IMG/VR virus record: IMGVR_UViG_3300028388_003330
Location: 1 to 64,000 of that record
Origin: a virus
Length of the DNA stretch: 64,000 bases
Reading direction: 5' to 3' (one strand)
Position 1 is the stretch's first letter. Every line of letters starts with the position of its first letter. Shown here in pieces: positions 1,873-47,100 of the stretch. The position numbers and the translations under genes were made by a program. The notes under the pieces were generated by a model. It made no database searches and was not told the origin of the DNA. It was given only the letters and a program-made list of their open reading frames with translations.

Positions 1873-4800
1873 TTAACTAATCACTTCCGCCACAAGCTCA
1901 AAGGTCTTGTTCAAAATCTCTTGATGGGCGCTGTGATGATAGATCGTCGCCGGGTTGATTCCGACAATGATTGTGGCGTCCAAGGTCTTGTCATAGATGA
2001 CCTTGTTGGCGATATCCGTGTAGCCACCCTTCAGATCAGGAACCAATTTCCTAGCAATCGTAGCACCTAGTGCCACAATTACTGGCGGTTTCAGGTACTC
2101 AATTTCCCGTTCCAAGAACGGGTAACAACCATTAATCTGTTCGTTCGTCATCACCTTGCCGTCCTTCTTTGCCTTCAGCAGCGTGGTGAAGTACATGTTC
2201 CTCATAGACAGGTCCGCATGCTTCATCGCTTCCCTGACGTACTTGCCGCTTTTTGCTGCCATCAACTCCCCGGCTTCTTCCTCAATCCATGTCGGGCAGT
2301 CTGTAATCACCATCACTTTCGGTGACTTGCCCATCCTTGGTTTTAAATGAGGTCTGCCAGCAAGATTGCAGTTCTCGCAACCGTCAAACTCTTTCGTAAG
2401 TCTGATGATTTTGGCGGAAACGAACTTGTCGATTTCCATTTTCCGGTCTGTCTTGACCATCTGAACGATCAGCCCCGGAATAAACTCAATCTGGTCGCGC
2501 AAACGATCAGGGTGCAAGACAGGAAGCCCGCCCTCAATCTCGACAAAGGAACCAATCCTTTGCAAACGCTCACGCACCGTCTTGTTGATGCGTTTGCCTT
2601 CCATAAAATTCTCAAAGTCGGCATAGCTTTTGAAGCGACCGCCCGCCTGTGTCCGCGCTTCAATGATCCGGTGACAGGAGCGTTCTGAAATCCCCTTCAC
2701 ACGATTGAAGGGAATAATTAGCTTATACTTATCAGCCTTTGTATCGAACACCACTTCAAACACGTCGCTGGACCGATTGATGTCAGGCGGAACCACCATG
2801 ATGTCCTTGTTTGCAGCGTCCTGAACCAAGCCCTGCAGCTTGTCTTCGTCCAGAATGGACAGGGAAGCCGCGTAGAACTGCGCTGGGTAATACTGCTTAA
2901 CCCACATCGCCCAATAACTGATAATCGAATACTCAACCGAGTGTGACTTGTTGAAGGCGTATCCGGCGAACTTCTGGATCTTATCGAACAGCATTTGGGC
3001 GCGGCGCTCCAACATATCAGAATGTAATTTGCAGCCCTCAACCCACTTAGATTCCTGCTTCGCCATCATTTCCGGGTCTTTCTTACCCATTGCTTTACGC
3101 AGGTGATCGGCGTCCGACATGGAGAAGCCCGCCAAGTCCTGCGCGATCTTCATGACCTGTTCCTGATAGACGATAACGCCGTAGGTTTCCTTAAGCGCCT
3201 CAACCATGTTGGGATGCTCGTAATGGATCGGCATCACTCCTTGTTTGGTCGCTACGAAATCCTCCATCAAGCCAGAGTCCATAGGGCCAGGTCGATACAA
3301 CGCTGTTGCTGCCGCGATATCCTCAAACGTCAAGCCGCGTACACTGATGTCCCGCAACAGCTTCCGCATACCCGGAGATTCAAACTGGAACACGCCAATG
3401 GTGTCACCCATTGCGAACGCGTTCAGCACCTTCTCATCGTCCAGCGGTAGCTTTTGATAATCGACCAGAACACCGTGATCGCGCTTGATCATATGCTTGG
3501 CGATGTTGAGAATATCCAAGGTCGAAAGACCCAGGATATCCATTTTCACCAAACCCTGTTCCTCGACAACGCGCTTGTCCCAGTTGACCGTGACATCATC
3601 GCCCCGCGTTTCCACAACGGCACGATTAACAATCGGTTCTCCAGCAACAACGATACCCGCTGCGTGTCTACCCAGACTGCGCATCTTGCCCTGTAACTTC
3701 TTCGCGTGTTCCCACACAACAGGGTGGTTTGTTTTGAAGGCATCAATTTCCGGAACAACCTCTGCCGCTTGTTCCATTTCATATGATTTGCCGTGTAACG
3801 CAGGAACCAGCTTTGACGCGGAATAGGCGTCTCTCTCCAGATTGAACACGCGGGACACATCACGGATTGACCCTGCGGCTCCAAGACTGGTGAAGTTGCT
3901 TATACCCGCAACGCAATCTCTGCCATAACGATCCACAAGGTATTGAACAACCTCTTGCCGTCTGGATGACATGAAGTCGAGGTCAGCATCAGGAAGATCC
4001 AGACGATCCGGGTTGATGAACCGTTCAAAAATCAATCCAAACCGCAGAGGATCGACATCGGTAATACCCAACAGGAATGCGATCAACGAGCCGCCTACTG
4101 ATCCTCGACCTGGGCCTACGGTGATATCGTTGCGCTTGCTCCACTGCACCAAGTCCTGCACCAACAGGAAGTAGCGTTCAAAACCCATCTGACGCAGCAC
4201 TTTCAGTTCGGTTTGCAGGCGTTCCTTATACTTTGGCAAGTCTGCGGGGTCCGGCTTGAATCCTAGCTGTTGTTGACCAAGTCGCTTAGTCCAACCCTTC
4301 TTAACTTCAGAAACCAGCGTCTCGCGCTCATCATCAGCCATCTTTGGAAGCGACACATCCGACGGCTTCCAGACATAATTAATCTGGTTAACGAAGAATT
4401 CCTGGTTTTGAATAGCCTCAACCCAGACAGCGCCCGACCAACTGTCGAGCTGTGCCATACGCTTGTTCAACCTCTCAGATGCCGCTTCCGCTTTGTTCAC
4501 TAATTCGCCATGTTCGCAAAACGTGAACGACCGTATTTGTTGAACAGGACGCCACGCATCCGTGATCTTGGCGTTCATTGCAATGGCTGACATCACATCC
4601 AGCGTGTCGGCATCCTCTTCTGTAAGGTACATCGCCGGATATGTCAGCAGCACCGGAAGCGATAATTCTCGGGAACAACTGATGGCACGGATGTTCAGTG
4701 TATCGAACAGCACACTGTCGATGGGGCACAATTCCACAAACGTCTGAGAGCTTCCACAAGCGCTTGCCATTCTCTGGATATATCCGCAGTAGTCTTCTTT

Positions 4801-5259
4801 ATGGCAGACGCTTAGAAAGTCTCCTGTAGACGCTAGCAAATGCCCCCGAGATAGCTCGCTTAGCAGTTCTTCGAATCCGATCCGAGAGTGATGGTAGAAG
4901 TGATCTGCTTGATTGGCGATGGACAGCAATCGATACAGCGACCGGATTCCTTCTTCGTTCTTGGCGTAAACCTTCACGAAGAACTCTTCATTGGGCTTCG
5001 TGCGCTGCTTCTTTGGGGTCTTGTCGAGCGGGTCGTCAACGATTCGAATCTTGCAGCCGATAATCGGCTTGATATCGTTCTTCAGACACGCCTTAGTAAA
5101 AGGGATCATTGACGAAATGCTCATGAGGTCCACAAGCGCCACAGACTTGTAGCCTCGCTCTTTCGCCAATGCTGGAATTTCTGTAGGGCTTAACAGCGAA
5201 TGCCCGATACTGAAGTCGGACATTACCGAAAGCGCATGCTCAGCTTTCAACTCCCCCAT
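1873..5259 (-). CDS. DNA polymerase III alpha (DnaE-like) with degenerate PHP domain and UDG-like C-terminal domain
   Basis: A C-family replicative polymerase of 1128 residues. The polymerase core shows GPGRGSVGGSL, FERFINPDRL and PDADLDF, whose two aspartates match the catalytic pair of E. coli DnaE, and LVKMDILGL supplies the third. The N-terminal PHP region keeps DIKPIIGCK but lacks the usual His-x-His and Asp-His metal ligands (it reads SDFSIG and VDLMS), so a PHP exonuclease is probably inactive. Residues from about 950 to the end look like a family 4 uracil-DNA glycosylase: CENC, PKVMVITDCP, INGCYPFLEREI and PPVIVALG. The catalytic GEAPG is TDCPT, the HPS is NPA and one cluster Cys seems lost, so this tail may only bind. 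It overlaps the upstream gene by 13 bases. Confidence 0.93.
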   Translation of the reverse strand: MGELKAEHALSVMSDFSIGHSLLSPTEIPALAKERGYKSVALVDLMSISSMIPFTKACLKNDIKPIIGCKIRIVDDPLDKTPKKQRTKPNEEFFVKVYAKNEEGIRSLYRLLSIANQADHFYHHSRIGFEELLSELSRGHLLASTGDFLSVCHKEDYCGYIQRMASACGSSQTFVELCPIDSVLFDTLNIRAISCSRELSLPVLLTYPAMYLTEEDADTLDVMSAIAMNAKITDAWRPVQQIRSFTFCEHGELVNKAEAASERLNKRMAQLDSWSGAVWVEAIQNQEFFVNQINYVWKPSDVSLPKMADDERETLVSEVKKGWTKRLGQQQLGFKPDPADLPKYKERLQTELKVLRQMGFERYFLLVQDLVQWSKRNDITVGPGRGSVGGSLIAFLLGITDVDPLRFGLIFERFINPDRLDLPDADLDFMSSRRQEVVQYLVDRYGRDCVAGISNFTSLGAAGSIRDVSRVFNLERDAYSASKLVPALHGKSYEMEQAAEVVPEIDAFKTNHPVVWEHAKKLQGKMRSLGRHAAGIVVAGEPIVNRAVVETRGDDVTVNWDKRVVEEQGLVKMDILGLSTLDILNIAKHMIKRDHGVLVDYQKLPLDDEKVLNAFAMGDTIGVFQFESPGMRKLLRDISVRGLTFEDIAAATALYRPGPMDSGLMEDFVATKQGVMPIHYEHPNMVEALKETYGVIVYQEQVMKIAQDLAGFSMSDADHLRKAMGKKDPEMMAKQESKWVEGCKLHSDMLERRAQMLFDKIQKFAGYAFNKSHSVEYSIISYWAMWVKQYYPAQFYAASLSILDEDKLQGLVQDAANKDIMVVPPDINRSSDVFEVVFDTKADKYKLIIPFNRVKGISERSCHRIIEARTQAGGRFKSYADFENFMEGKRINKTVRERLQRIGSFVEIEGGLPVLHPDRLRDQIEFIPGLIVQMVKTDRKMEIDKFVSAKIIRLTKEFDGCENCNLAGRPHLKPRMGKSPKVMVITDCPTWIEEEAGELMAAKSGKYVREAMKHADLSMRNMYFTTLLKAKKDGKVMTNEQINGCYPFLEREIEYLKPPVIVALGATIARKLVPDLKGGYTDIANKVIYDKTLDATIIVGINPATIYHHSAHQEILNKTFELVAEVIS

Positions 5260-5846
5260 ATTTTATACCGCCCCCTCTCTGTTCTAACGACCGACAACGC
5301 TAGCAGTGTGTGAACCACTATCAAAACATGCGAGTTGGCTGTTCCATAGGACCAGTCGTTCTCCTTCATTAACCTGCTGCGCAACTCTGAATTGGTGAAA
5401 CCCTGATCCAGCAGCATTTTGCAAGCCACATACATGTAGCGATGCGATTGACGGTACTTGAAAGGATTGACGCCTTGAATCAGATTGGCATGCAAATCGA
5501 TGCCGTGTTTGTACATGTATTTTAGAAGCCGTTCTGCTTTGGAATAACGACCTTTAATTTCTTCAAGCGCCTGCTGTTCACGCTTGGTAATTTCCAGCGT
5601 GTAAACTTTGGTTTTGCGCTGAACTTCGGGGCTTCCAACTAGTTTGATTGTGTGGCTAACTTCCGCGCCTTCTCTGCGAAGTGCCGCAATGTAGTCTTCA
5701 ACGTTCATTTTAACCGAAATGCATGACAGGTGTTCTGCAGTCTTCTGCTTACAGCGGGTAAAGAACTCGCAGTTTTGGCACTGTTGAGACTTGGTTGACA
5801 AACACACAACCAAGCCAAAACAGTTAGGCGTTTTATTGCTTATCAC
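5247..5846 (-). CDS. Cysteine-cluster phage protein, probable DNA-metabolism role
   Basis: A 199-residue protein of unknown function lying directly upstream of the polymerase and overlapping it. I choose the GTG at 5846, six bases after AGGAG; a TTG two codons earlier abuts the AGGAG and is less likely. The N-terminal 35 residues hold a Cys cluster (C-F-G-L-V-V-C, then CQNCEFFTRC) typical of small zinc or iron-sulfur modules that precede DNA-binding regions in phage proteins. The remainder is charged and mostly helical, with YMYVACKMLLDQGFTNSELRSRL near residue 140 resembling a winged-helix fold. Position in the replication block suggests a polymerase or helicase accessory factor. No enzyme motif is seen. 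Confidence 0.75.
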   Translation of the reverse strand: MISNKTPNCFGLVVCLSTKSQQCQNCEFFTRCKQKTAEHLSCISVKMNVEDYIAALRREGAEVSHTIKLVGSPEVQRKTKVYTLEITKREQQALEEIKGRYSKAERLLKYMYKHGIDLHANLIQGVNPFKYRQSHRYMYVACKMLLDQGFTNSELRSRLMKENDWSYGTANSHVLIVVHTLLALSVVRTERGRYKIWGS

Positions 5847-5891: not shown

Positions 5892-7055
5892 TTAGAAGGT
5901 GATGAAACGCTGTGCGAGGTTTTCCGCTATCTCCTTATCGATGGGAGTCATACGATTGGTGATAGCGAATTGAACACCTGCGATGATGCTGCCCTTCATC
6001 GATCCGATTTTGGCAGCGTGTATGAGTTCGCGAGGACCAACAGTAGCGCCGATCTTTTTGCTATCGAAAGCCTTCCTGATCTCTTGTGCCCAATCAATGA
6101 GCATTTCGGCGTCTTCCTTAGTGACACCACCCTGACCCTGTACGACGCTTGTTTCATGCCGCTTGGACATGTACTCGACAGGAATCGTCATGCCGAAACG
6201 CGAGTAGTTCGCCGCGTTTTGGATGTTTGTACCAGAGTATAGTCCATGTTCGTCGCCCGTTCCGTTGGTGTTTCCAGTTGCGACGAAGCGGAAGTTGGGG
6301 TGCGGCTTGATGATCCTGTTCTCGCGATCAGCCTCTTTTATAACAAGCGGCTTTCCTTCAAGCACCGGTTGATAAATCGCAAGGATCGATGGGTACGCGA
6401 AATCGTATTCATCAGCGAGATACAGCCATCCGTACTTCATCGCTAGCGCTAGCGGACCCAGTTCGAAGATCGTTTCTCCGGCCTTCACTGTCCACTGCCC
6501 GACAACATCGGTTTCCAGCATGTTTTCAGTATGTTGCACCCGCATGAACGGACGATGTGTGTAATGGCACATCTGCTCCACGACCGTCGTCTTTCCGGTT
6601 CCAGCGTGTCCGTACAGATACGTCGGCGTATTGATTTCGATGCCGAGAAGCAGGTTTTTGAGAACATCGATGTCCCAAATGTAGTTTTCGTCCTGCTCCG
6701 GAACTAAGTGGTCGTTTTCTGATGCACCGCAAACAGTGATCGGAATTCCTTCGCCTTTGATGTTCCGCGCCGCCTTCATTTTGCCCAATCCGAACACGTC
6801 ATGAAGGTGGGCAGTACGCTGCGATGACGAAAGCTGAACCACCTTGTCGTCATCATCATTGATGATCGGTGCTGCTCCGATCATCCGCGTCATCTGGCGC
6901 TCGCGGATTTTTTCTTCCGCCTCGTCGCTCAGCACCGGATGACCCGGATACGTCTCGCGATAGGTTTCCAGGCTGACTTCCGGATGCGCCTTAATCAGGT
7001 GCAGTTGAACGCTGTGAACCAAGTCTCCACAGATTTGACAGGTTATCTTACCCAT
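5892..7055 (-). CDS. CobS/MoxR-like AAA+ ATPase with N-terminal C2H2 zinc finger
   Basis: A 387-residue AAA+ ATPase. Residues 5-25 hold CQICG followed by two histidines (MucR-like zinc finger). The ATPase core shows Walker A GHAGTGKTT near residue 148, Walker B LYLADEYDF near 210 and a sensor-like FVATGNTNG near 255. The sequence resembles CobS, the ATPase subunit of aerobic cobaltochelatase, and related MoxR proteins. Phage CobS homologues are common, but no cobalamin genes are present here, so a remodelling role with the VWA partner encoded just upstream is more likely than metal insertion. The start follows AGGAGGGAAGAAT, and an operator-like repeat sits at 7070-7089. Confidence 0.88.
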   Translation of the reverse strand: MGKITCQICGDLVHSVQLHLIKAHPEVSLETYRETYPGHPVLSDEAEEKIRERQMTRMIGAAPIINDDDDKVVQLSSSQRTAHLHDVFGLGKMKAARNIKGEGIPITVCGASENDHLVPEQDENYIWDIDVLKNLLLGIEINTPTYLYGHAGTGKTTVVEQMCHYTHRPFMRVQHTENMLETDVVGQWTVKAGETIFELGPLALAMKYGWLYLADEYDFAYPSILAIYQPVLEGKPLVIKEADRENRIIKPHPNFRFVATGNTNGTGDEHGLYSGTNIQNAANYSRFGMTIPVEYMSKRHETSVVQGQGGVTKEDAEMLIDWAQEIRKAFDSKKIGATVGPRELIHAAKIGSMKGSIIAGVQFAITNRMTPIDKEIAENLAQRFITF

Positions 7056-7069
7056 ATTCTTCCCTCCTG

Positions 7070-7089
7070 CTCAGTTGCCACTTACTTAT
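7070..7089 (-). promoter_or_regulatory. Operator-like repeat upstream of the CobS-like gene
   Basis: On the plus strand it reads CTCAGT-N8-ACTTAT. One arm matches the recurring TAAGT-N8-ACTTA motif exactly and the other carries mismatches. It lies just upstream of the ribosome site of the ATPase gene, in the same place as the repeat before the VWA gene. An overlapping TTACTT-N8-AAGTAA inverted repeat occupies 7082-7101. Confidence 0.5.
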
Positions 7090-7127
7090 TGCTACAAGTA
7101 AATAGTATCGCGTTGAGTACGGTCAAT

Positions 7128-9224
7128 CTACTTTCCTTTGAGACTTGCCAAAAGGATCGTCTTTAGCTTACCCATTACAGCGCTGGGCAAGTCCTCGACC
7201 TTATTCAAAACTAGATTGTCGGTGTAGTAGTCCTCAACTGCCCGACTCAAGATACCGATTCCAATGATATTGGTATCAGTCTTTTCGATATCGCGGATAA
7301 CCCTCCGAGTGTATTCCCGAATATCATACGAACTACCCATCGCAGCAGGAGCACCGTCGGACAGAACGATCATCAACTTACCGTTCTCTCTGCGACTCTG
7401 TAAACGCCGATAGCACAGTTCAATCGACTCACCATCAACGTTGTTCCACAGATGACCGTTTTCTGGATAGTCCGCGAACCGATATTTGACTTCAGGGGTA
7501 AAGCGCTCATCGAAGGTCTTGAAGATCGGAAGATAGATTGCTTCGCCTCGTGAGAAGAGATTACCCTTCTCCTGCGCTTCGAAGAACTCCCTATGAACTT
7601 CTTCAGTGAAAGGCTTCGTCGTAAATCCGATCACTTCATGCGGCACGTCGATGCGCTCCAGCACAGAAGCCAGCGCGTATGCAGCCTGTGCAGCGGTCAG
7701 CATCTTGAAACCCGCCATCGATCCAGAGCAGTCAACAACCAACTGAACAGCAACATCGTTGGTGATCTTCTGTTCCTTCTGACGGAACACCCGCATATCC
7801 ATTAACTCGGGGTGCTGCTTACCAATTGCGAGTTTAGATAGCGACCGAGAGTTAAGCGAACCTTTGCGCTTTCCTCCTGCCCAGCGGATCATGCTTTGCG
7901 CTTTGATAAGGCGTTCCAGTTCCTTCTCCATGACGCCAAGCATGTGATCGACGGTGTCTTCCATGAGCCCAACTTGACCTCGCTCTGGATACTTAGGCTT
8001 CCAGATTTCGACCACATCTTCGTCCGTTGTAAACGCCCTGTATGTTGCGGACTTGCCAATTTCTTCTGCTTCCTCAGAGATTGCCGCTGATACACCCATA
8101 TCGAAGTCGTTAACAGCGTTTTCCCAATCCTCTAGCGAGAAGTGGTAATCGTTGTCATCGGTGTTCATTTCCTTGTCTGTGTTGGTCATGACAAGCTGAT
8201 CGTCGTCATCACCATCGGAGTCGTCAGAGTCGGATTCATCGGACGATGCGCCGTCAGAATCTATTCCATCATTAGAAGGCGTCGTATCTTCATTTTCCGA
8301 TCCGGGTTCATCATCCTGACCAGATTCCTCTTCGTCACCGTCTTCTTCGCCTTCGTCGGAGCTTCCGCCTTCGGATTCCTCTTCGTCACCGTCTTCGTCG
8401 GAATCAGAATTATCGCCACCAGATCCACCTTCCTGCTCTTCATCACCCTCGTCCTGATCCTCATCCTGACCAGACGCGCTACCCTGCGTTTCTTCCTCGT
8501 CGTCATCCGGGGAGTTATTGTCGGGCGACATTTCCTCATCACCCGATCCAGTCGGATTCGAAGGAGGCGGTGGAGGGGTTGCTGCGCTGTCTTTGAGGCG
8601 ACGATGCATCTCTTTGGCGATTTCGTAGGAGTCTTGGGTAGATGCGATATGACCGATGCGTTCAATGATGTCATCACCAACGATCTTGACGAATCGCTCC
8701 AAGTGCTCCCACTTGTCTTCCATGAACCGCTGAACATCACGCTGCCCGCTCCACGCACGAACCGCTGGAACGAACAGGATGCCTTCGATTGCCTCCTTGT
8801 CGTTGTTCTGAATCGCTTCAGCGAGCTTGGGGGAGATGAACTTGCGCAAGAAGAAGTCCCGCACGTTGTCCAAATTGTATTCGGACCCTCGAAACCGCTT
8901 CTGCATGCATCGCTCAACAAACGGGTCTTCAAGGATGTTGTGCTCCTGACCGAAACCCTCCTGCGAGGACTTCATCAGAAGGTCGAAGTCGGAGAACAGC
9001 AGATGACCAACTTCGTGATCCAGAAACCCCTGAATCGCGTTTAGCAGGTCATCGCTCGCGTTGTCCGGAATATAAGGAATGTTGACGCGACGAACTTCAC
9101 CGTTTCCGTGATGCTCGACATACGCCTGCGAACCCCGCTGAGTGACTTCGATATCCCGTCCACTCAGGATTCGAGTCACCGACTTAACGGCTTCGCGAAT
9201 AAGAAAAATACGGTCATTAAGCAT
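7128..9224 (-). CDS. CobT-like VWA protein with N-terminal HExxH motif
   Basis: A 698-residue partner of the AAA+ ATPase. The C-terminal third is a von Willebrand A domain with an intact MIDAS (VVDCSGSM near residue 490, and LSDGAP later). Residues about 220-345 are an extreme Asp/Glu/Ser stretch, as in CobT. The N-terminal region contains HEVGH at residues 70-74, a perfect HExxH, followed by NILEDPFVE, which could supply a third metal ligand. This suggests a metallopeptidase-like domain, as known in some VWA proteins (DUF2201 families) that partner MoxR ATPases. The substrate is unknown. The gene begins after GGAGGGAGGATAAAA and has an operator-like repeat at 9242-9261. Confidence 0.88.
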   Translation of the reverse strand: MLNDRIFLIREAVKSVTRILSGRDIEVTQRGSQAYVEHHGNGEVRRVNIPYIPDNASDDLLNAIQGFLDHEVGHLLFSDFDLLMKSSQEGFGQEHNILEDPFVERCMQKRFRGSEYNLDNVRDFFLRKFISPKLAEAIQNNDKEAIEGILFVPAVRAWSGQRDVQRFMEDKWEHLERFVKIVGDDIIERIGHIASTQDSYEIAKEMHRRLKDSAATPPPPPSNPTGSGDEEMSPDNNSPDDDEEETQGSASGQDEDQDEGDEEQEGGSGGDNSDSDEDGDEEESEGGSSDEGEEDGDEEESGQDDEPGSENEDTTPSNDGIDSDGASSDESDSDDSDGDDDDQLVMTNTDKEMNTDDNDYHFSLEDWENAVNDFDMGVSAAISEEAEEIGKSATYRAFTTDEDVVEIWKPKYPERGQVGLMEDTVDHMLGVMEKELERLIKAQSMIRWAGGKRKGSLNSRSLSKLAIGKQHPELMDMRVFRQKEQKITNDVAVQLVVDCSGSMAGFKMLTAAQAAYALASVLERIDVPHEVIGFTTKPFTEEVHREFFEAQEKGNLFSRGEAIYLPIFKTFDERFTPEVKYRFADYPENGHLWNNVDGESIELCYRRLQSRRENGKLMIVLSDGAPAAMGSSYDIREYTRRVIRDIEKTDTNIIGIGILSRAVEDYYTDNLVLNKVEDLPSAVMGKLKTILLASLKGK

Positions 9225-11975: not shown

Positions 11976-12470
11976 TTACGACCAGATCCGGTCAAGAATG
12001 GAAAACGTGTAATGAATGCCATTATCGACGCCAAACTGCTGATGCGTTGTCTTCCACGCAAGCGTTCGCCAGCTATCGAACCGAGTGTCGCCCTGCGGAC
12101 TGCAATGAACCTCTGTCAGATAGAGCCGATCTATCTCGGAAATAGATTCGCGGTAAATCTGTGCGCCCCCAATTACAAAGCCCTCTACACCATCAATGTG
12201 TATGGCTTGCTCCCAAGCTTCGCTCATGGAACGAGCGACAAAGACGCCCTTTTCCCAGATATAACCAAGCGGGTTTTGGGTAATAACAATGTTGTAACGA
12301 TTAGGCAGCGGACGACCAATCGATTCGTGCGTCTTGCGACCCATAATGATGGGATGACCTGTGGTGATTTCCTTAAACCGCTTAAGGTCTTTTGGCATGC
12401 GCCAGGGGAGATCGGAATTTACGCCGATCACCCCATTGTCTGCCGTAGCCATGATCATTGACTTAATCAT
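11976..12470 (-). CDS. Dihydrofolate reductase
   Basis: A 164-residue DHFR of full length that reduces dihydrofolate to tetrahydrofolate with NADPH, supporting nucleotide synthesis. Family signatures: GVIGVNSDLPWRMPKDLKRF (the Asp corresponds to the catalytic acid), IIMGRKTHESIGRPLPNR (NADPH and folate contacts), VIGGAQIY and the C-terminal YLTEVH strand. The ATG overlaps the stop of the upstream gene (TAATG), so it is coupled to the WGR-gene operon. No thymidylate synthase gene is visible in the window. It is the last gene of its block, facing the integrase. Confidence 0.95.
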   Translation of the reverse strand: MIKSMIMATADNGVIGVNSDLPWRMPKDLKRFKEITTGHPIIMGRKTHESIGRPLPNRYNIVITQNPLGYIWEKGVFVARSMSEAWEQAIHIDGVEGFVIGGAQIYRESISEIDRLYLTEVHCSPQGDTRFDSWRTLAWKTTHQQFGVDNGIHYTFSILDRIWS

Positions 12471-34768: not shown

Positions 34769-35156
34769 AGGACAGCTCCTTGGATTTAGCAGGGAAAGTG
34801 TCGATGGAGACGGTGTAGTCGCCGGGAAGCTCGGCAGTTATTTCCAGAACCCCATCGTCCACCGTAACTCGTTCAAGCACGCCCACTGCAGATAGGGTGA
34901 CAACGGCACCAACAGGCACGCCAGACAGCGTGGCAACGTCTACACCGTCAGCGACGATGGACGTCTTATCCAGTTGAGCGGGGTTGTCGGGTCGCAGGAC
35001 AGGCTCGCCGTCAGGAAAATATGTGGACGCTGCGTCGAACTCTCCTTCATAGTGTCCCTCGTCGGCATTTACGTTATTCGCCAACCCGCTTTCAACGCCG
35101 ATGTGTATTTTGACGACGCGCCCGGTATCTGTTTTGTAGATGGTGTAAACGCTCAC
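34755..35156 (-). CDS. Small beta-rich tail-tip protein
   Basis: A 133-residue beta-rich protein (VVKIHIGVESG, VGAVVTLSAVGVLERVTV, LPGDYTVSIDTFP). Its GTG start overlaps the stop of the giant gpJ-like gene. Small proteins at this position are common in siphoviruses and often belong to the tail tip or fibres. The later strands look Ig-like. No specific family assigned. Confidence 0.68.
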   Translation of the reverse strand: MSVYTIYKTDTGRVVKIHIGVESGLANNVNADEGHYEGEFDAASTYFPDGEPVLRPDNPAQLDKTSIVADGVDVATLSGVPVGAVVTLSAVGVLERVTVDDGVLEITAELPGDYTVSIDTFPAKSKELSFVAT

Positions 35157-38100
35157 TTCTTCACCTCAAGCGCAGAGATAATTAGGTCGTCCACTTTTAC
35201 TTCTATATCGTTTCGACCGCTTTCATAGGTGTTAGAAACATACAAATCTACTGAGTACCTACGAGTCCCAGCAGGCGGAACGTCCATGTACACAAACGTG
35301 ATAAAGTCGCCGCCCCCTTCGCGATACCTCGCTATTTGAGTGCCACCATATATGTGTACATCATCTCTTTTAAGGTCCATGTACAACGAATCGTACCCAT
35401 CGCCGTTGGCGCTGGATATAACCATCCGCATACTAACTGTTATCAGCGCTTCGTTACCAGTAGCCGTATACGTTAAGTATCCGTACTCCGTCCAAGTGTT
35501 TGCAACAGTAGTAAGAGTTGTGAATTTATTCGTCGTTGGTATGGTGACCGCCCTGTCAGCTATCTTTAACGTAGTGACAGCAAGTTCATCTATCTGAAGC
35601 GTACCAACCGCAAGCTCAGCGATATGCCCTCTTTCCACAATCTCCAGGGAGTCGGCCTTCAGAGAAGAGGCTTCGATATTCCCCCTGGCGTAGATGTCGT
35701 TAAACTGGGCGTTGCCGTTTTTGTTTATCCACCAGCCAGACGTTACGTTGACGAAGTTGGTAGACTGTATCGTGTTGCCGATATAGGCATCACCTATGGC
35801 GCCAGCGGCGATAACAGTAGAAACGTTACTCTGATTAATCTCGTCGATGAACGCGAAAGTACCACTCTCTGAGCCAGCAGACTGCAGGCAGGCCCTGGCC
35901 ATGTTCCAGGCTTGGTCCCTGTTCCAGAACTCGCGGTAGTACCGCGCCTCGGAGAAGATGCCCCCGTAGTACACACCGGAACCGAGAGAAGACGTATCCC
36001 AGTCGCCTTCGCTGTTTCCGCCAATAGCCACTGCACGGGCTGTCGTTGTGAAGCTGGACGTCGTGCCGAGCGTCGAGGTCTGGTATGACCCGTCGGCGTG
36101 GAACATGTAGTAGTGGAGTTCGTTCGCGTCCTTGTCGAACGTGACGATCAGGCAGTGCCACTCGTCCTGGTATATCGCGTCAGTAAGCGTGCTGGGGTTG
36201 CCGAATGCAAGGCTGACATTCATCTTGCCGTTGCCGTCGTACGTGGATTCGGAGGTAGAAACCCCCCAGCCATCTGATAAGTCCCGAGTAACAATCCGCG
36301 CCCCTGAAGGGGGAGGCGTGGACGGGGCTTTAAAGACAAACACCCACGACTGCTGCGGGTAGGTCGCGTACGCCGTGTCCACATTCTTCGCGAGCTTGAC
36401 CCCTGCGCTGTCTATCTGGACGCCTTTGCCAAGGTTGGCCTGGACTACACTTACCGAGTTCGCGCCGTTGCTCAGAGTCACATAGCCAAGTTTGGCGGTA
36501 GCGTCCTTGAACTCTCCGCTGTCGTCATCGCTGTAATCTGTTGCAAACGACCAACGCCCAGCAAGTTTTGTCGGGTTTGGTAGGCTGTCTGGATAGCCGG
36601 TGAAGTTATCCCAGAAGTCAGCACCAACAGTTGCACCGTCTTCGATGTTGTTTAGCTTAGTGCCCTCGGCGGTGCTGATTTCCGACAGCGAGGTGGGAGT
36701 GCCGGAGAGATCGTCGTACTCGGTTGTGCCGCCACCTGGGATCGCATAGGTCGATGGGTTGGACAATGCCCCGACCCGCTCCTCGAACATGATGCCGTCG
36801 AACCACACGTCGCAACCCGCACCGCCTTCGTTGTCTACGCGAAGCAGAAGGCGGGTGGAGGTGGTATCCGCCGAAAGGTCTATCGTGGCCGTGATGCGCT
36901 TCCAATCACCGGGTGTAGCGGCGCAGGTGAAGTTGTAGCCGAGATAGGTATCGTTTAACTGCCGCCGGGTGTATAGCTGCACTGCCGCGTTGGCGGTGTT
37001 GCTGCGGACGTAGCAACTGAACAGCCACACTTTACCCGGCTCTATCGGGATGTTGTAGTTAGTTGCGCCATCACTAAGAAAGACGTACCCATTATCGCCG
37101 GTCGCCGCTATCTTTAGGCTGTGCCCACCGAAATAGCTGACAGTGGCGTCTAGGCTTACGGTAGCCGTCGACGCCTTAGCCAGCGTCGGGAAAATATTCT
37201 CGAACACCGAGTACCGATAGTTGGCAATGTTGACGCCACTACCTGCCGTGTTGTTGTAGGTACTGTCGGCGTCAAGCTCGCCCACGTAGTCGAGGTCGTA
37301 GATCGAACTGTTGGTCTTCGCCAGGGCGCTAACAAGCGGGGCACCCTTGTAGATGCTGAACGGTATGTCGAGCCACGCATCGGGGTCGTCATCAACCTCG
37401 CCAGCGTAGGCTTCAAAACCGTTGCCTTCCCCACAGCCTGGGATGCCGATGAGAACGTAAGCGCTGCGGTTCTTGAACAGATTGGTCGAGCCGTAGACCG
37501 CCTTTGATGCGCCGCAGCGGTACATCGCCGCGTCTAAGCCGTTAGCCAGACGGTTGTTCTCTGGTTCGTCGAAGCCGTAAACGACCACGATCTTGGTGTT
37601 GTCAAGAGCGTTGAGCGCAGCGGCCATCGTTGTGGCGTTAGCGACGCTACCGTAAACATCGTAGGTCTGACCAGACTCTCTGAGTCCGGTTGTGCGGTTG
37701 AACACAACCATGGTATAGGAACGCCCGATGCCCTGGATCTGGGTGTCGTCTTCGTCGTAAAGGCCATGCCCATGGGCGGAATAAGTGGCTTGGTTACCCT
37801 TAGTTACCACCCGGTACATCAGCGGACGACCTGACAAGTTGGCAGTCCAGTCAGCGCCAACGGTCGCTTCAGGCTGTACGCGGCTGACCTCGACGTGGGA
37901 CACCTTGACCGTGCCGGTACACGCGCCAACGATGATCTGCACGCTGACCTGACGGCAGTCAGGCTGCAGCGCGGCAGCAGAACCCTCCAGCCAGTACCAC
38001 TGACCTTTGGTTACACCACCATCGTCGCTTACTAGATCTGGCCACGAGCCAACGGCGGTGCTTGCGCCAGCGCTGGTTTTCTCATTCAGTTCGATCCGGA

Positions 38101-41100
38101 ATCCTGTCCCGTTGTAGTCGGTCGAGAAATACACCCGCGCGCGGCAGTACAGCTTCTCCCCTTGCAGCAGTGGGATGTACTCGCCCCTGTTGGTGTAGCA
38201 TGTCTGACCATAGGCTGTCGCCGTGGGGTTGACCACTTGCCAGCAGGGACCGCCGTCTTCCGCCCCCGTAGCCGATACCGTGGCGCCCCCCGTGACGTTC
38301 CAGAACGACGTGTCGCCGGACGCGTACTTTATGAATCCCGGATCGCCGCAGAAGTTGTAGCCCATCGGCGCGTACTTGTTCAGCAACTGCTCGTCGGGCG
38401 GCATGTTATCTAGGTTAGTGCCCCAGGTTGCACCTACGGTCGCGCCTTTCTCGTATCCACCGATAGGCCGTATCTGCACGGCGTCTACGTCGTAGTAACG
38501 TGACGTTGCCGTCCAGTGGTACACAGCGAATGAGGCAAATTTGGCCCCGGCTGTTGGAGTGTATGTGTAGGTGTCTTCTTGCCACGTCGTTCCGGGGTAC
38601 TGCCCGTTGTTATATACAGAAACGAACGTGGTTCTAGTATCAGTCAACGCACTAGTACCACCAGCTCCTATGTGAGTTTTGCCCTCCGCGAGCGCAGAGC
38701 TTTTCTCGTTGAACCGGAGATACAGCCCAGTAGTGCCTACGCTCTCAGCACGATGGCGAATCGTTACCTCGTAAGTTTGCTTGTCGTCGATGGGTATTGC
38801 GGGCCACCCGTAAGCAACGCTGGCGTCATTCGCGTGGGAAATACGCATCCACGTCTTAGTGGAATCGCCCCAAGCAAATGCAGCCTTGCTATTCGTGCTT
38901 TCAACCGCTTCTATACCAGCAGGTTTGCCGTCTGGGCCGTTTATGGACAGGTTCCAGTTCGGCAGCATCCCTGAAACAGCCGATACGTCCCAGGCCGGAG
39001 TAGCCTTGACGACGATGTTTTCCGTTGCAGCACCGTCGGCGTTTGACGCCCATATCGCGATGGTGTTGGTGCCTTCAACAGCGTCCCCAACGCGGTAAAA
39101 CCACCAGCTTGTGTTATCAGGCTGCGAGCTAACTTCGTTGTAGTGTAGGTTTGCGCCTATGGTCGTTCCATTGAGTGCGAGTTGCACCCCGCCTTCAGCA
39201 TCGCGTATCAGGACGCCGATAATGATCTTACCCGCCACGGGGCAGTTGAATGTCCACGTATCGGCGCTAGCAATCGTCGTGCTCATGGGAATGCTGTCGT
39301 TGATGGCCCCTGTAGTGAACAGAGTGGACCCAGCAGCGAACGCAGCCTCTAGCGCGTCATACCATTCCTGCTTGGTCTGGCCTACAGTCGCACCGTCTTC
39401 GATGTTAGTTAACTTAGTGCCCTCGGCGGTGCTGATCTCCGACAACGAGGTTGGTGTACCAGAAAGGTCGTCGTATAAAGTTGTTCCACCTCCGGGTATC
39501 GCGTAAGACGAGGGGTTGGACAATGCCCCGACCCGCTCCTCAAACATAATGCCATCGACCCACAGATCACATCCTGCACCGCCGTCGTTATCAATACGAA
39601 GGCGAAGACGAGTTGAAGTGTCTGCGCTAAGGTCAAGCGTCCAGGTGATACGTTTCCAATCACCGGGCGTAGCCGCGCAAGTAAAACTGCCACCTGGGGT
39701 AGTGCCGTCGGAGTTCCTTACGGCACGCAACTGCACTGCGGAGTTTGCGAGACTGCTGCGGACGTAGCAACTGAACAGCCAAACCTTACCGGGTTCGATA
39801 ATTACGTTCCAGTCGCTAGCGTTTTCGGCAAGAAGAACATAACCATCATTGTCGGTTGCCGATATTTTCAGACTGTGCCCACCGAAATAGCTGATGGTGT
39901 CGTCGTAACTAACCGTTGCGCGGACAGGTACTAACGTCGGGAAAATGTCCTCGAATACCGAGCAACGGTAGTCGGCAATGTTGACGCCACTGCCTGCCGA
40001 GTTGTTATAGGTGTTGTCGGCATCAAGCTCGCCCGTGTAGCCAAGACCGAGAATAGTTACCTTTCCTCCACCGGCTCCAGACAGCGTCCCGTCGTCGGCT
40101 AGTTCAATGACGGTGTTGTCAATAGATTTATCAAAGAACGCAAACCGCAGGTTGTCGAAAATGACGGTGCCTTGGAACTGCCCACCGGACATGCCGGTAT
40201 AAGACGCCATTAGGTGAATCTGTAATCTATATATCTGCTCGCCAGGGTTAAGGCGGGCGGTAAACGGTACTTTCTGCCAGCCGGTGGTCGTCAGCGGGGC
40301 TGTGAACGGTGTCCGCCTGTAGCTCCCGGAGGTGTTATAGAACAGATCAACCAGAATACCTGGGCGTCCGCCTGCGACATAGTTTTCAATGTATATGTCG
40401 AACGCACCGGAGACGAAGGTATCAGCCGGAAGCGGGGTGTCGTAGAACGACACAGTGCGAACTATGCCGAAGTTAGTGGCAGCCGGTACGACAAACTTCA
40501 CCGCGTAGGGGCCGATGCGCCTGAGCGTCGTCTCTTTTACTGGAGTGCCCACTCCGTAGCTGTTCCACCCTGTTGGCCTAGTCTGACCATCCGGCCAATC
40601 ACTGAACGTCGGGTTGAAGCCTAGAGCAACTGAATCGTCGTTGGTGTAGATGCTGTCGTAGGGGATGTTGGTGACGTTGCTGTTGAAGTCAGCGCCTACG
40701 GTCGCGCCGTCTGCTGGCAGGTTGGTGTTGGTTGCTATCAGCGAACTGAGTACGTCGATGCCAGTACCGGCTGCGGTAGTCCATTTTCTACCAATGGCGA
40801 CAATGCAGTCAGTGTCCAGCGGTGTGAACGTGTATTTCACATTGCCGTTATCAACCGCCTGCCATGTATCCGTGTCAATGTCATAAATCGCGCCGAAGAA
40901 TTCAACGGCAGTTCCGAAATTGTTGGCGAACCGTGTGTTAGGGGACTCGTCCGTATAGATGATGTAGAACGGGTCTTGCTTAATCCCACCTTCCCACGCC
41001 GTGTTTAGCTGGGTGTCGTTGGTTATGCTGCGCTTCGTCCCATCCGGGTGATAGAACGTTGTGCCCGTTATGCGGATCTCACCGGGGTTCGCACTACCAT

Positions 41101-44100
41101 CCCCAAGTTCGTTTTTAAGTAACCTAACATCGCCGAACCCACCAGTGTGCATCGACCCCAGCGCAGCGCGATTGAGAGCAACAGGAACACCAGACACTCC
41201 GTCCCAATTTGCCGTATCACCAAGACCTGCGCCGTCAGTCAGTTCACTAGTGTTTGTGATGTAATTGGCGTTGAGTGCGCCCGTATAGTCGAGGTCAAGA
41301 ACGCTACCGCCAGAAAAATTGATTCCATCCCAATTTATCTTGCCGCCCGACTGCAAGACGATATTGCCAGATGAATCGCGAATCGTTATTTGCGAAAATT
41401 CTGCCGATCCAGATTTATCAATCCTCCAACCACTTGTTGGCGTGTAGTTAAGGCTTTGAATGTAATCGCCGATTTTCGCAGTGGAAATAGTGCCATCTTG
41501 TATATAAGTTTCATCGATATATACAACGCCATTGCGAACAATAAATGGTACAGATACATCAACGCCATTCGGATCAAGAATAGAAAACTGATTCGCAAGA
41601 ATCGCCACCTCTGAACTGGTGGTTCCAGATTGATCGTTTTCAACAGAGAGACCAATACCTGCTATTGCTGTTTTTCCATCAGCGGCACGAGCTTCTACTT
41701 TTACGGTGTATTCTGAGGAAAGAAGCCCGTCTTTATCTGCACGCGCTTTGGCTTCTCGCTGAACTGCCGCTATTCCCAAGCCGTCATAGTCCCTAAGAGC
41801 CCGACGCATACCACGAGCAACATACTCATCGTCGCTCAGGTTGTTAAGCCGCAGCATGAAAGGGGCGGTTCCTTCAAACCGCACCGGGCCGCTGTAGAGC
41901 GTCGGGTCCACGCCGCCGATATTACCAACTTCGACTTTGCCGACGTTGTCGCGAGATGCGTAGGACAGGTCGTGGGTGGCGACTACGCCCGTGGAGTCGA
42001 TAACAGTGATAACGCAGGGCTCTACTGCCGCAACAACGTAGTCAGATACGTTATGGGCAATAAGATAAGTGTCGCCCAGCATCTTCGTCGAGATAGCGGG
42101 TTCGCAGTCGCCACCGGCGCTGTCGCCAATAGCCGTAGTCTGAACGAGTCCAGGGGAAGTGATGTAGTGCGAATTGCCGAGTGATGTTTTCTCGTACGAC
42201 GAGTTTACGCTGTCATAAATAACACTGGTGTAGCGCGCCGCCAGAATCTCACGCGCCATCGGCAACAGACAGGTGTAGTCACCAGCGTTACCCTCGGCGA
42301 AGGCGACGATATCCGAACTGGACTCGATAATGACAAACGCCGGTTCAGTAACCGTCGTTGACCACGTCTGCACCGTGCCGGACGGGACCGTGACCGTAGC
42401 AGTCGGCGAGCTAAAATCATACAGCGGCGTGCCAGCATTGTTTATCTTGACGACTGCAGATCCCGACACCGCATAAAAATACAAAGTTACCGGCGAATAG
42501 CGGTTGTAGTAATGCCCGAAGTATCTGCCGCAATCAGAGAATGCTGGAACCTGATCGCCGCGATCCTGTAGCTCAAACTGCGTGGGCTTGTTCGCCGTGA
42601 ATATGTCACCAAGAGACGCGGTACGAGTGATGACACTCATCGCGTCCAGCGGGCCAGCGGTCTCTACACTGTTTTGGTAGATGTAGGTGCCGTCTTCCAG
42701 CGCTGCGATGCGAATGGTCTGGTCTCCGGAGGACCCGAGCACCACCCTTGGAGACGTAAGCGCCTGCGCATTTATATAAGAAGGTTCATCAGATCGAACA
42801 TCAGTCAATGCCGAAAGCTGTTGAATAGATTCTGCTCGGGCGGTTTGTTCATCAGAGATTACATCGTCGACATAGGTAATTGAGGCTTTGAGATCAATAT
42901 CAGCCTGAAGACCGTCGTCGGCAGTTTGATAATCCGTTTCCAGTTGAGAGATTGCGGTAGCTCTTGCCGTCGTTTCATTAGAGACTGCCGTGTCTACATA
43001 AGTAATAGACGCCTTCGACGATGAAAGGTCGTTATAACCCCAGTCCGAATAAACAGGAACAACCTCATAACCTGCGGGTGTGTAGGTATGATCACCAATC
43101 GCATCTGCAACAGCATCTTGGCGAGTATCGATCCAGCTATTACCTACAACGCCATAGACTGAAACCTGTACTCGACCAGCAATTTCTTTGGCGTTTTCCA
43201 GATTCAGTACATAAATGGTTGTCTTGTTTGCTGTTGGGTCATGATAGACCGCCAACCGATCTGGAATTTCTACATCATTGCGCCAACGATATACAGCGGT
43301 TCCTACAAACGTACCAATACCGTCATGTACAAGACCGTTACTGTTTGTAAAAACAGAAATATCAACGTCTGCTGAATTATCTTGGCGACCAGCCCTTGTA
43401 CCGTAACGGACGCGACCAGATAGAGCTAGTCCGTGATAATTACCGGTATTTGTATACTCAAATATCTTAAACGCCGCTGTTGTGCCACTGCCGTTATGAA
43501 TCTTTAGATCAACGTTATAAACCGTTTCAACTGCAGGTAGCGAAACCTTATCAAAATCACCAATGGGCACACCGTTCTGCAGATCGGTAACATCATCGGC
43601 GATAAGAGAATCGGCAGCTTTATAATCAGCGTCTAACTGCGACAACGCCGTGGCGCGAGCCTGCTGCTCATCAGAAATTACATCGTCGACATAGGTAATT
43701 GATGCTTTGGCATCAATATTGGTCTGAAGACCTGCGTCAGCAGCTTTGTAATCGGTATCTAACTGCGTCAACGCTGTCGCACGAGCCTGCTGCTCATCAG
43801 CGATTGCATCATCGACATAGGTAATCGACGCTCTGGTATCGATAGCGTAATCGGCGGTAGCGTCTTCCAGCATTATTGCGCCGACTTCCGTTGTTCCTGC
43901 TACACCGCCATAGTTGGCAATGAAAACGGGACGCATATAGCGAACGTTTTCGTGAGCAAGATGCGGGGCCTCTGCTGTGCTAGCGCCCGAATAATCTCCA
44001 AGCGGCGAGCCGTACCCTTTGGTATAACCGGTAATAACTTCCCAAGTTGCTGCTATGGTGCTTTTACCACCGCCAGTGGTGTGATAGTGCTGATTGTTGA

Positions 44101-47100
44101 AAACGTTATCGCCATTGATGTTGACATACGTCGTTCCATCGGACGCAATGCCCTCAAAACCCGCGTAGAAAGTACCGGTTCCAGCCGTCCTACGAATAAT
44201 AACGGTCCATTTATAGATACGCTCTGGATCAAACGGAATTAGGCTGTTATGAGCCAACCAGTGAAGATCATCGCCCGAGTTATCACCGATTCTTAGAAAC
44301 TTACCGCCCATATAGCTATCAGCGGCGGTTTGAATCGATAGCTCCCCAGTTCCTTGTCTGGTGATCCAGTAATTCAAGGCATTGGCGTCTTCCCAAGTTT
44401 CTTGGAAAATGAGATTGCCGGAGTTTGACGCCGTCGCTTCAAGCGCTTGGATTGCCTGAGTGTGCGAACTTAAAGTGCCTGCTTGATCAATATAAACTGT
44501 CGTTTCTAGGTTATCGATAGCCTGAGCGCTAGCACTAAGACCCGTTTCCGAGTCGTCAATTGACGCCTGAACAGCATCTAGACGATTGGCGTTAGCAACG
44601 ACGCCTCTTTCACTATCTTCTACCGTCGTTTCAAGATCGCTAATAGCAATAGAATGCGCTGCTACAGCGTCGCCAAGACTGGAGTAATCACCGATTTTCG
44701 TCCAGTAAGCGGTATCGGTAGGAAGAGGCGAAGGTGGAAAAACAGCCGTCGTATCCTGAATACACCGATAAAGCGAACCGTTGTAAGCAACGATATCGTC
44801 TACAAAATATTCAGTATTCGCATCAAAATCAGGCGTACCTTCAAGCGCCGCCACTTGAGTCTGGAGAGTATCTACCGCGCCCTCTAGGTCTGTCGTTCTA
44901 TCGTCAAGACCGGTAGTAGGCGTATCAATTAAATTAATTCTGCTATTGAGCGAAGCGGTTAATTCGCTCTCTGAAATCTGACCCTGAAGATCGGCTAATG
45001 TAATACCGAAGTCTTCAATGACGACACTAACCTCAGAGCTAAACGTTAGATTGTCTTTGCCCCAAATGTCATACGCCGCAACACGGACATACCAAGTTTC
45101 ACCGTTATTGGCGGTTATCAGACAACCATTGCCAGTACCTTCATATACCTTGTTTGTATTTATATTTGGAGTAAAGCCAATGGTTTGAGATGCGCAAACG
45201 ATATATCCGCCAACATCAACATCGCCTACACGATCCCAGCCAGCAGCATACTGCGTCTCAGCGTTATTAACGAAAAGATTGCTTGGCGCAGAACTAATCT
45301 GCGGGTTCGTAACGATAATACTTGCGGAGCTACCAGTGGTTCCGCTATAGAGTCTAGCTTTAACCCTAACCGTGATTGAACGATTAATCTGTCCGTCGTT
45401 CTGAGCATCCGCCCATGTATAGGTGTAAGACGGATCTCCAGTGTATGAAATTCGAACAACGGCTGAATTGATTTCAACCTGAACCTCGTAGTCGTAAGCC
45501 TCTTCCAGCTCGTCCCAGCGAACCGTAAAGCGATCCGAAATGAACGGACTTACCAGACCAAGATTCTGAACCTGACCGGGCGGGGCAACTTGAGTGCCGT
45601 TAACAGCGTTAAAATCACTATAAACGCCATCTGTAGTTACTGCTTTAACCCAATAAAAATAACTGATGCCCTGATTAACTGCGGCATCTGTGAAAGTCGC
45701 CTCTTTTGTACGTCCTATTTCTACCGCCGTACCGTTATCATCACTGGCACTGCGATAAACAACGATTTCGTCGTATATGCCTGTTGGCGGCGTCCAACTA
45801 AGGCTAACGATTGTTCCAATTGCAGTCGCAGTAAGGTTTGTAGGCGTAGTTACATCTGGGCGCGCAGTAGAACTAAACGCGATGGTTGGCGCACCAGCAA
45901 AAGTGGCCCGACGACCAACAATGTCAAAAGCAACGACCTTAAAGAAGACAGAAACGCCAACAGGGATGCGATGACGATACTCCAATGTCCGCATATCAAC
46001 CTGACCAACCTTCTCGTAAGGTGCGCCATCAACGGACATATGAATATCTGCACCGCCATAAACACCTGAAGCGGGATACGACCAATACAGATTTGCAACA
46101 GGAAGATAGCTGTTACCTATCTTCTCATATTCTTGGTAGACGCCTAGATCAACAACCTGCCCAATCTGTTGAGGTGCCTCATATATAGGCAACTCAATAT
46201 TATTGTCAACATTATATATTGCCGAATTATACTCAATGGCCCGGATTGTACGAACTTCATGACCAGAACCATTAATTGCAATAACGCGAAATGGACGCTT
46301 GACTAGGGTAACCGGCCCTAGCATAAATTTTGCGTATTTTGGAGGGGCTGAACCTAACGACGAGGCTACGGTTACCGATGATGTTAAACCCGGCGCGTTT
46401 GTAATATCTCGCTCAATTATTACATCAGTATCGTAAATAGTATAATCATGACCAGCAACGATACCAATGGTGTTTTCTATTTCAACACCATAATTTCCAG
46501 ATCCGTCATCATATACAACGCGACGAATTCGATGATCAACGCCGTTAATAACAGCGCGTGTTACGTTGGTATTGCCGTCATAACTGTTCAACCATACAAT
46601 GCCGCCTCCTACTGCTACGCCAGACACCGTACCGGTTGCGCGAGAAATCTTGTCGTAATTAATAAGCAGTCGGTAAGTAATACCGTCTAGTAACTCAACC
46701 TCTTGATCAAGGTTAACAACACTAACCGTGGAATTCGCTTCCAGCCGACCGCTGTACTCCCAATTCGGGAGATTATGCTGTACAAGTATCTGACTACCAA
46801 CCGTACAAGCAATAGACTCTACCGGCGCATCAAACGTAATGCTTTTGGTAATGTACTTGTTTAAGTTAAGTTGAAATACCGCCTCATTAACGGCTTGTTG
46901 TTTATCGGTACAACCAAATAACGTTATCCTTGCCGTTTTTACGTCATCAGTTGGCAAAAGAGATGGGTCGCGAACCTTTAATGTGGTTCTTTCATAATCG
47001 TTTTCTGAATCAAAGTAGGTAACTTCGATTTCATTTGCCCTGTCAGTCATGGGCAACCAAGTCATCTTAAATGACTTCTCGACAATGTTACCTACGTTGA

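Follow-up and report, generated by a model that had tools for sequence, protein, structure and literature searches.

The 64,000-nt stretch of viral DNA analyzed here (the window) contains a dnaE-like gene on its minus strand, and this gene encodes a protein of 1128 amino acid residues. Based on the Pfam search, the domain order of the protein is PHP, DnaE polymerase core, fingers, helix-hairpin-helix (HhH) and uracil-DNA glycosylase (UDG) superfamily. The gene and the parts of its product were located as follows:

1873..5259, minus strand: dnaE-like gene, 1128 amino acids (open reading frame; NCBIfam DNA polymerase III alpha, E = 1.8e-228)
4813..5226, minus strand: PHP domain, residues 12–149 (Pfam PF02811, E = 5.9e-17)
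3973..3993, minus strand: polymerase active-site motif PDADLDF, residues 423–429 (aligned with PDFDVDF of E. coli DnaE)
2536..2802, minus strand: HhH region, residues 820–908 (Pfam PF14579, E = 2.5e-14)
2479..2493, minus strand: putative beta-clamp-binding motif QIEFI, residues 923–927, between the HhH region and the UDG domain
1876..2430, minus strand: UDG-fold domain, residues 944–1128, in place of the OB and C-terminal domains (Pfam, NCBIfam, AF2)

The polymerase part has the PHP, Pol3 and HhH domains and the catalytic aspartates of a C-family DnaE. The third catalytic Asp was assigned by alignment to D574 in VKMDILGL (VKFDFLGL in E. coli DnaE), and the catalytic aspartates of the active-site motifs were invariant across 32 relatives. 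In the sequence alignment, residues 9–889 of E. coli DnaE corresponded to residues 10–906 of the window protein, and the match stopped at the HhH region. In the full-length AF2 model (pLDDT 88.9), residues 2–912 matched E. coli DnaE and residues 944–1128 matched family 4 UDG. The OB and C-terminal domains of DnaE bind the template and tau. Both the OB and the C-terminal tau-binding domains of a typical DnaE1 are absent from the window protein; given that the DnaE match ends at about residue 909, at the HhH region, and that a UDG fold comes next, the UDG domain replaces them. The putative clamp motif QIEFI, drawn as a helix in the AF2 model, lies after the HhH region, which matches the location of DnaE clamp motifs (PMC3919608). 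When 63 fused domains were compared at this clamp-type motif (Q-x-x-L-[ML]), Gln was found in 48 and Arg in 15, position 4 was Leu, Phe or Met in all of them, and position 5 was mostly Met or Leu.

An earlier note on this DNA had claimed that a phage DnaE carries a UDG-like domain at its C-terminal end, and had proposed comparing its predicted structure with family 4 UDG; both the domain searches and that comparison bore the claim out. The Pfam UDG profile PF03167 matched residues 979–1110 above its gathering score (E = 3.6e-11 with the whole protein, 1.2e-12 with the domain alone). The NCBIfam family 4 models gave ∼2e-15 and 57 bits with the isolated domain, against cut-offs of 125 and 250, and by these scores the domain is to be taken as a relative, not a member, of those models. 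The AF2 model of residues 907–1128, built from 55 aligned relatives, had a mean pLDDT of 89.3 and a pTM of 0.85. Its best matches in the PDB were the family 4 UDGs 4zbx (Z 24.6, rmsd 2.1, 181 residues aligned), 1vk2 (Z 24.2) and 1ui0 (Z 23.7), followed by UdgX, the family A polymerase of phage phiLo (9qhs, Z 15.5), TDG and MUG; a literature search found no paper on the phiLo structure 9qhs. The fold thus belongs to the UDG superfamily and is nearest to family 4. The interval 1873–2400 given in the earlier note does hold the domain, but the fold spans slightly more (residues 944–1128, positions 1876–2430). Since the same fusion recurs in dozens of phages at 25–49% identity, the fused domain is not a chance arrangement.

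The earlier note had named no such fusion for DnaE, and this hint of novelty did not hold. DnaE proteins with the OB and C-terminal domains replaced by a UDG domain were described in 2013 by Timinskas et al. (PMC3919608), and in RefSeq the entry for Rhizobium phage RHEph10 is already annotated as ‘uracil-DNA glycosylase-like’. The DnaEX-UDG of that paper, which strains of Y. pestis and S. enterica carry as an additional polymerase, has the same PHP-Pol3-(HhH)2 core and PF03167 replacement as the window protein, and the passages concerned give neither a phage link nor an analysis of the UDG motifs. Matches among Salmonella plasmids lead us to infer that the bacterial copies in those passages are SSU5-type phage-plasmid genes.

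The phage collection held 41 records covering at least 80% of the whole protein. The best of the matches listed were full-length fusions and included those of Stenotrophomonas BUCTxx99, Pseudomonas hairong and nickie, Rhizobium RHEph10, elements of Klebsiella and of Escherichia, and Salmonella SSU5. In the plasmid search, 918 records matched over 80% or more of the domain (E ≤ 1e-3). Most of them were elements of 100–115 kb from Klebsiella, Escherichia, Acinetobacter and Enterobacter, and a few weaker matches were free-standing UdgX or UDG. From IMG/VR, 177 relatives were obtained, of which 80 were kept, and GTDB genomes yielded five. The viral relatives were recovered from viral contigs by an alignment-based scan, whereas a single-sequence scan of the viral contigs gave none; a DNA-level search for the domain in E. 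coli genomes gave no match, the sequence being too divergent. The DnaE-UDG architecture was identical in every full-length relative examined. The window gene is best read as encoding the C-family (DnaE) replicase of an SSU5/RHEph10/nickie-type phage or phage-plasmid.

The motifs of the domain were compared with those of known glycosylases in 63 non-redundant DnaE-fused domains (<90% identity). The sites concerned are:

2347..2379, minus strand: CxxC (C961, C964) with His971, which make up three of the four putative metal ligands (co-occurrence, n = 63)
2290..2304, minus strand: degenerate motif A, TDCPT, residues 986–990 (GE(A/G)PG in family 4)
2182..2193, minus strand: YFTT, residues 1023–1026 (Y-x-T-N in family 4; the uracil-reading Asn is replaced by Thr)
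2170..2172, minus strand: A1030, where family 4 has its third cluster Cys (KCRP; Cys in 0 of 63 fused domains)
2125..2127, minus strand: C1045, fourth putative metal ligand, equivalent to the fourth cluster Cys of family 4
1948..1956, minus strand: degenerate motif B, NPA, residues 1102–1104 (HPS/HPA in family 4)

The window domain shares the family 4 fold over its whole length (4zbx, 1vk2 and 1ui0; Z 24, rmsd ∼2), but it is changed at motif A, the Asn of the TN motif, motif B, the stacking Phe, the third cluster Cys and two Arg residues, and the four-Cys [4Fe-4S] site of family 4 is not present. As the earlier note had read from the sequence, GEAPG and HPS are altered, to TDCPT and NPA. These changes run through the family. 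At the second position of motif A, every one of the 63 domains has Asp (Asp987 in the window protein) instead of the family 4 Glu; the Asn of the TN motif is replaced in every one by Ser, Thr, Ala or Gly (T1026); the His position of motif B is Asn in 53, Ser in eight and His in two; and the stacking Phe is kept in three (M1000 in the window protein). A comparison of 34 DnaE-fused domains with eight domains of family 4, four of UdgX and nine fused to PolA showed that the Arg of motif B and the Arg of TKxRG were absent from all 34, whereas family 4, UdgX and most of the PolA-fused domains retained them. The domain also shares the fold of UdgX (6ail, 6ajo; Z 22–24) without its GEQPG, KRRIH loop and HPS: TDCPT stands for GEQPG, and KAKKDGK occurs where the R-loop KRRIH is expected. 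In UdgX, the Glu of motif A, the Asn of the TN motif, and the His and Arg of motif B serve catalysis or substrate binding, R184 of motif B supporting substrate binding (PMC10359453). Given that motif A, the TN Asn, motif B, the stacking Phe and the Arg residues are changed family-wide, the domain is very unlikely to remove or even read uracil, to judge from its sequence.

A UDG-like domain is also found on family A phage polymerases, both the SPO1 type (SPO1 gp31, LysYB1, Serbin and PMBT14, with phiLo 9qhs as the solved relative) and others. Several of these PolA-fused domains share the D-x-P motif A and the missing Asn with the DnaE-fused domains, but they mostly retain HP, the Arg residues and the four Cys. 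Moreover, their UDG domain lies N-terminal to a family A polymerase, an arrangement that the window protein, a C-family polymerase with a C-terminal fusion, does not have. In the tree, the DnaE-fused domains formed one clade (100/100) separate from the PolA-fused domains. Jointly, the two groups fell on one side of the tree, at a distance from the cellular enzymes (family 4, UdgX and family-5-like); support for this is weak (80/83) and the branches are long. A common phage origin of both is possible.

The loss of a cluster Cys, which the earlier note had reported, stands at A1030, but it is apparently compensated by the conserved His971 and is not a simple loss. CxxC, His971 and Cys1045 were present together in 51 of the 63 domains, all missing in 11, and reduced to the His in one; of all alignment columns, these differed most between the domains having and lacking the set. 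The window protein has the C-C-H-C set, whereas the SSU5-type members are without it. As these residues are present or absent jointly, the alignment suggests that a putative C-C-H-C metal site has replaced the four-Cys Fe-S cluster, with a His gained and the third Cys lost. The best tree called for four to five separate losses of the set, of which two had good support, and with so few independent losses a tree-based test of Cys-His co-loss gave no significance. This variant metal site, within an architecture already known, is what appears to be new here.

The former pocket also retains conserved residues. Asp987, Thr1025, Glu1052, Pro1058, Gly1065 and Lys1077 were invariant in the fused domains, Met983, Pro989, Tyr1023, Lys1029, Lys1032, Asp1094, Gly1100 and Pro1103 were nearly so, and near-invariant positions across very diverse phages numbered 17. 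The former active-site stretches averaged 1.47 bits, against 1.91 bits elsewhere in the domain, so that their conservation is mildly higher; as 17 of 183 mask rotations gave values as low, this proves nothing alone. The conserved residues of the old pocket could reflect a retained ligand or an altered activity, a point against the structural role favored below.

In at least nine relatives (L001, at 4523–5311, and L009, L014, L026, L036, L044, L051, L064 and L065), dnaE is broken at the same place, corresponding to residue ∼744 of the window protein at the end of the fingers, and the gap between the halves holds a NUMOD4/HNH-type gene in most. The UDG domain of these relatives lies on a separate HhH-UDG polypeptide of ∼400 amino acids (PHROG 4335, ‘unknown function’), which shows that the core of the polymerase can work with the HhH-UDG part in trans. 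The upstream halves end in a conserved tail of ∼45 amino acids, roughly AG[YWF]xEVELEDGTxVxVHRxxKxxCxDGxxRTxxEA, at these positions:

L001, 4523–4663
L026, 4609–4761
L036, 4576–4716
L009, 2406–2555
L051, 1936–2079

The downstream halves start with a short conserved leader (MKIKSI..., roughly 8–20 residues). For the conserved tails, Pfam gave nothing beyond weak, sub-threshold matches, and the Rfam intron search found none at gathering score in the split genes; neither tail nor leader could be placed in a Pfam or Rfam family. The tail and leader may be what is left of an intein, or may serve as a docking clip by which the two halves are rejoined. A split intein was considered and rejected as unproven, given the short downstream leader and the missing terminal HN.

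The virus record, of 80,202 bases, encodes terminase, portal, tape measure, primase, DnaB-type helicase, SSB, integrase and two ParB proteins. The two ParB-like genes are adjacent (L130 2390–3790, genome 65289–66689) and fit a phage-plasmid lifestyle. Sliding clamp and DnaQ-type exonuclease families were not found in this record, which fits dependence on host subunits; this is weak evidence, as the record may be a fragment. Searches of the same record for thymidylate synthase and trimeric dUTPase families also found none. A dihydrofolate reductase gene lies at 11976–12470 of the window, though the thymidylate synthase family was not found. Directly upstream of the polymerase region, at 5892–9224, is a CobS/CobT-like pair (a MoxR-type ATPase with a CobT-like protein), an arrangement shared by SSU5 and hairong.

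Read jointly, the results lead us to favor, with moderate confidence, a phage DnaE in which a pseudo-glycosylase has replaced the OB and tau-binding domains and plays a structural, non-catalytic part in the replicase. The OB and tau-binding C-terminal domains would have been swapped for a UDG fold that is no longer a uracil glycosylase. With its polymerase core intact and a clamp-type motif still in place, the enzyme would probably copy DNA on the host sliding clamp; the Arg at the Gln position in 15 of 63 domains and the helix drawn by AF2 at this motif speak against such clamp use. The C-C-H-C metal site would stabilize the UDG-fold domain in most members, and the fold would offer a docking surface for phage replication proteins, hold the template, or both, i.e., do the jobs of the lost domains. 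By analogy, a structural role is supported by gamma-herpesviruses, which use UDG as a structural part of the replisome, and by vaccinia virus, whose UDG is required for replication beyond repair (PMC5934625). The poxvirus and herpesvirus UNGs likewise are UDG folds serving viral replication structurally, but they belong to family 1 and to animal viruses, are separate subunits, and are not degenerate like the window domain.

The function proposed in the earlier note, a non-catalytic sensor that reads template uracil and stalls the replicase, would suit a UDG fold that sits on a replicase with its catalytic motifs altered. However, the uracil-recognizing residues are altered too (the Asn is absent from 63, the Phe from 60 and the motif B His from 61 of the 63 domains), the two glycosylase Arg residues are missing from 34 of 34, and the record, with no thymidylate synthase or trimeric dUTPase family found, gives no sign of unusual uracil handling. 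The sequence offers no pointer to uracil, and such a sensor is improbable. The same losses, at motif A, TN, stacking and motif B positions and both Arg residues, weigh against the idea that the domain is still an active glycosylase but has changed its specificity, Asp987 and Asn1102 having taken over catalysis or recognition. Such an enzyme could draw on Asp987 and Thr1025 (63 of 63 each) and Asn1102 (53 of 63) in the old pocket, but base removal by the replicase itself would presumably endanger the phage genome, and we give this explanation very little credence. Loss of the metal site on several branches is what a vestigial passenger under little selection might show, but the 17 near-invariant positions maintained across very diverse phages make a passenger hardly probable.

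Two further possibilities deserve somewhat more weight, both being rather unlikely. The domain may act as a DNA-binding module only, holding the template in place of the OB domain and needing no protein partner: it occupies the exact place of that ssDNA-binding domain, and Lys1029, Lys1032 and Lys1077 are invariant or near-invariant, but since all domains checked have lost the conserved Arg both in TKxRG and in the motif B loop, it would have to bind DNA in some new way. Tentatively, the glycosylase pocket may instead have been rebuilt, through Asp987, Thr1025, Lys1029, Lys1032, Gly1100, Asn1102 and Pro1103, into a site for a new, non-uracil ligand (another base, a nucleotide or a partner peptide) that controls the polymerase, beside the change from a four-Cys Fe-S to a C-C-H-C metal site.

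The replacement of OB and tau-binding domains by a UDG fold, noted in 2013 in a few bacterial strains in the passages concerned, is the standing design of a large and widespread lineage of phages and phage-plasmids. UDG folds are joined to phage replicases of both family A (N-terminally) and family C (C-terminally), which raises the questions of what a presumably dead glycosylase does at the replication fork and how the polymerase works without a tau-binding domain.

Elsewhere in the window, a single open reading frame of 4554 amino acids on the minus strand (35153–48817) takes up about one-fifth of the sequence. The C-terminal part of the SSB-like protein encoded at 2–1201 also matches the head-tail adaptor profile phrog_211, possibly by chance or as a composite.
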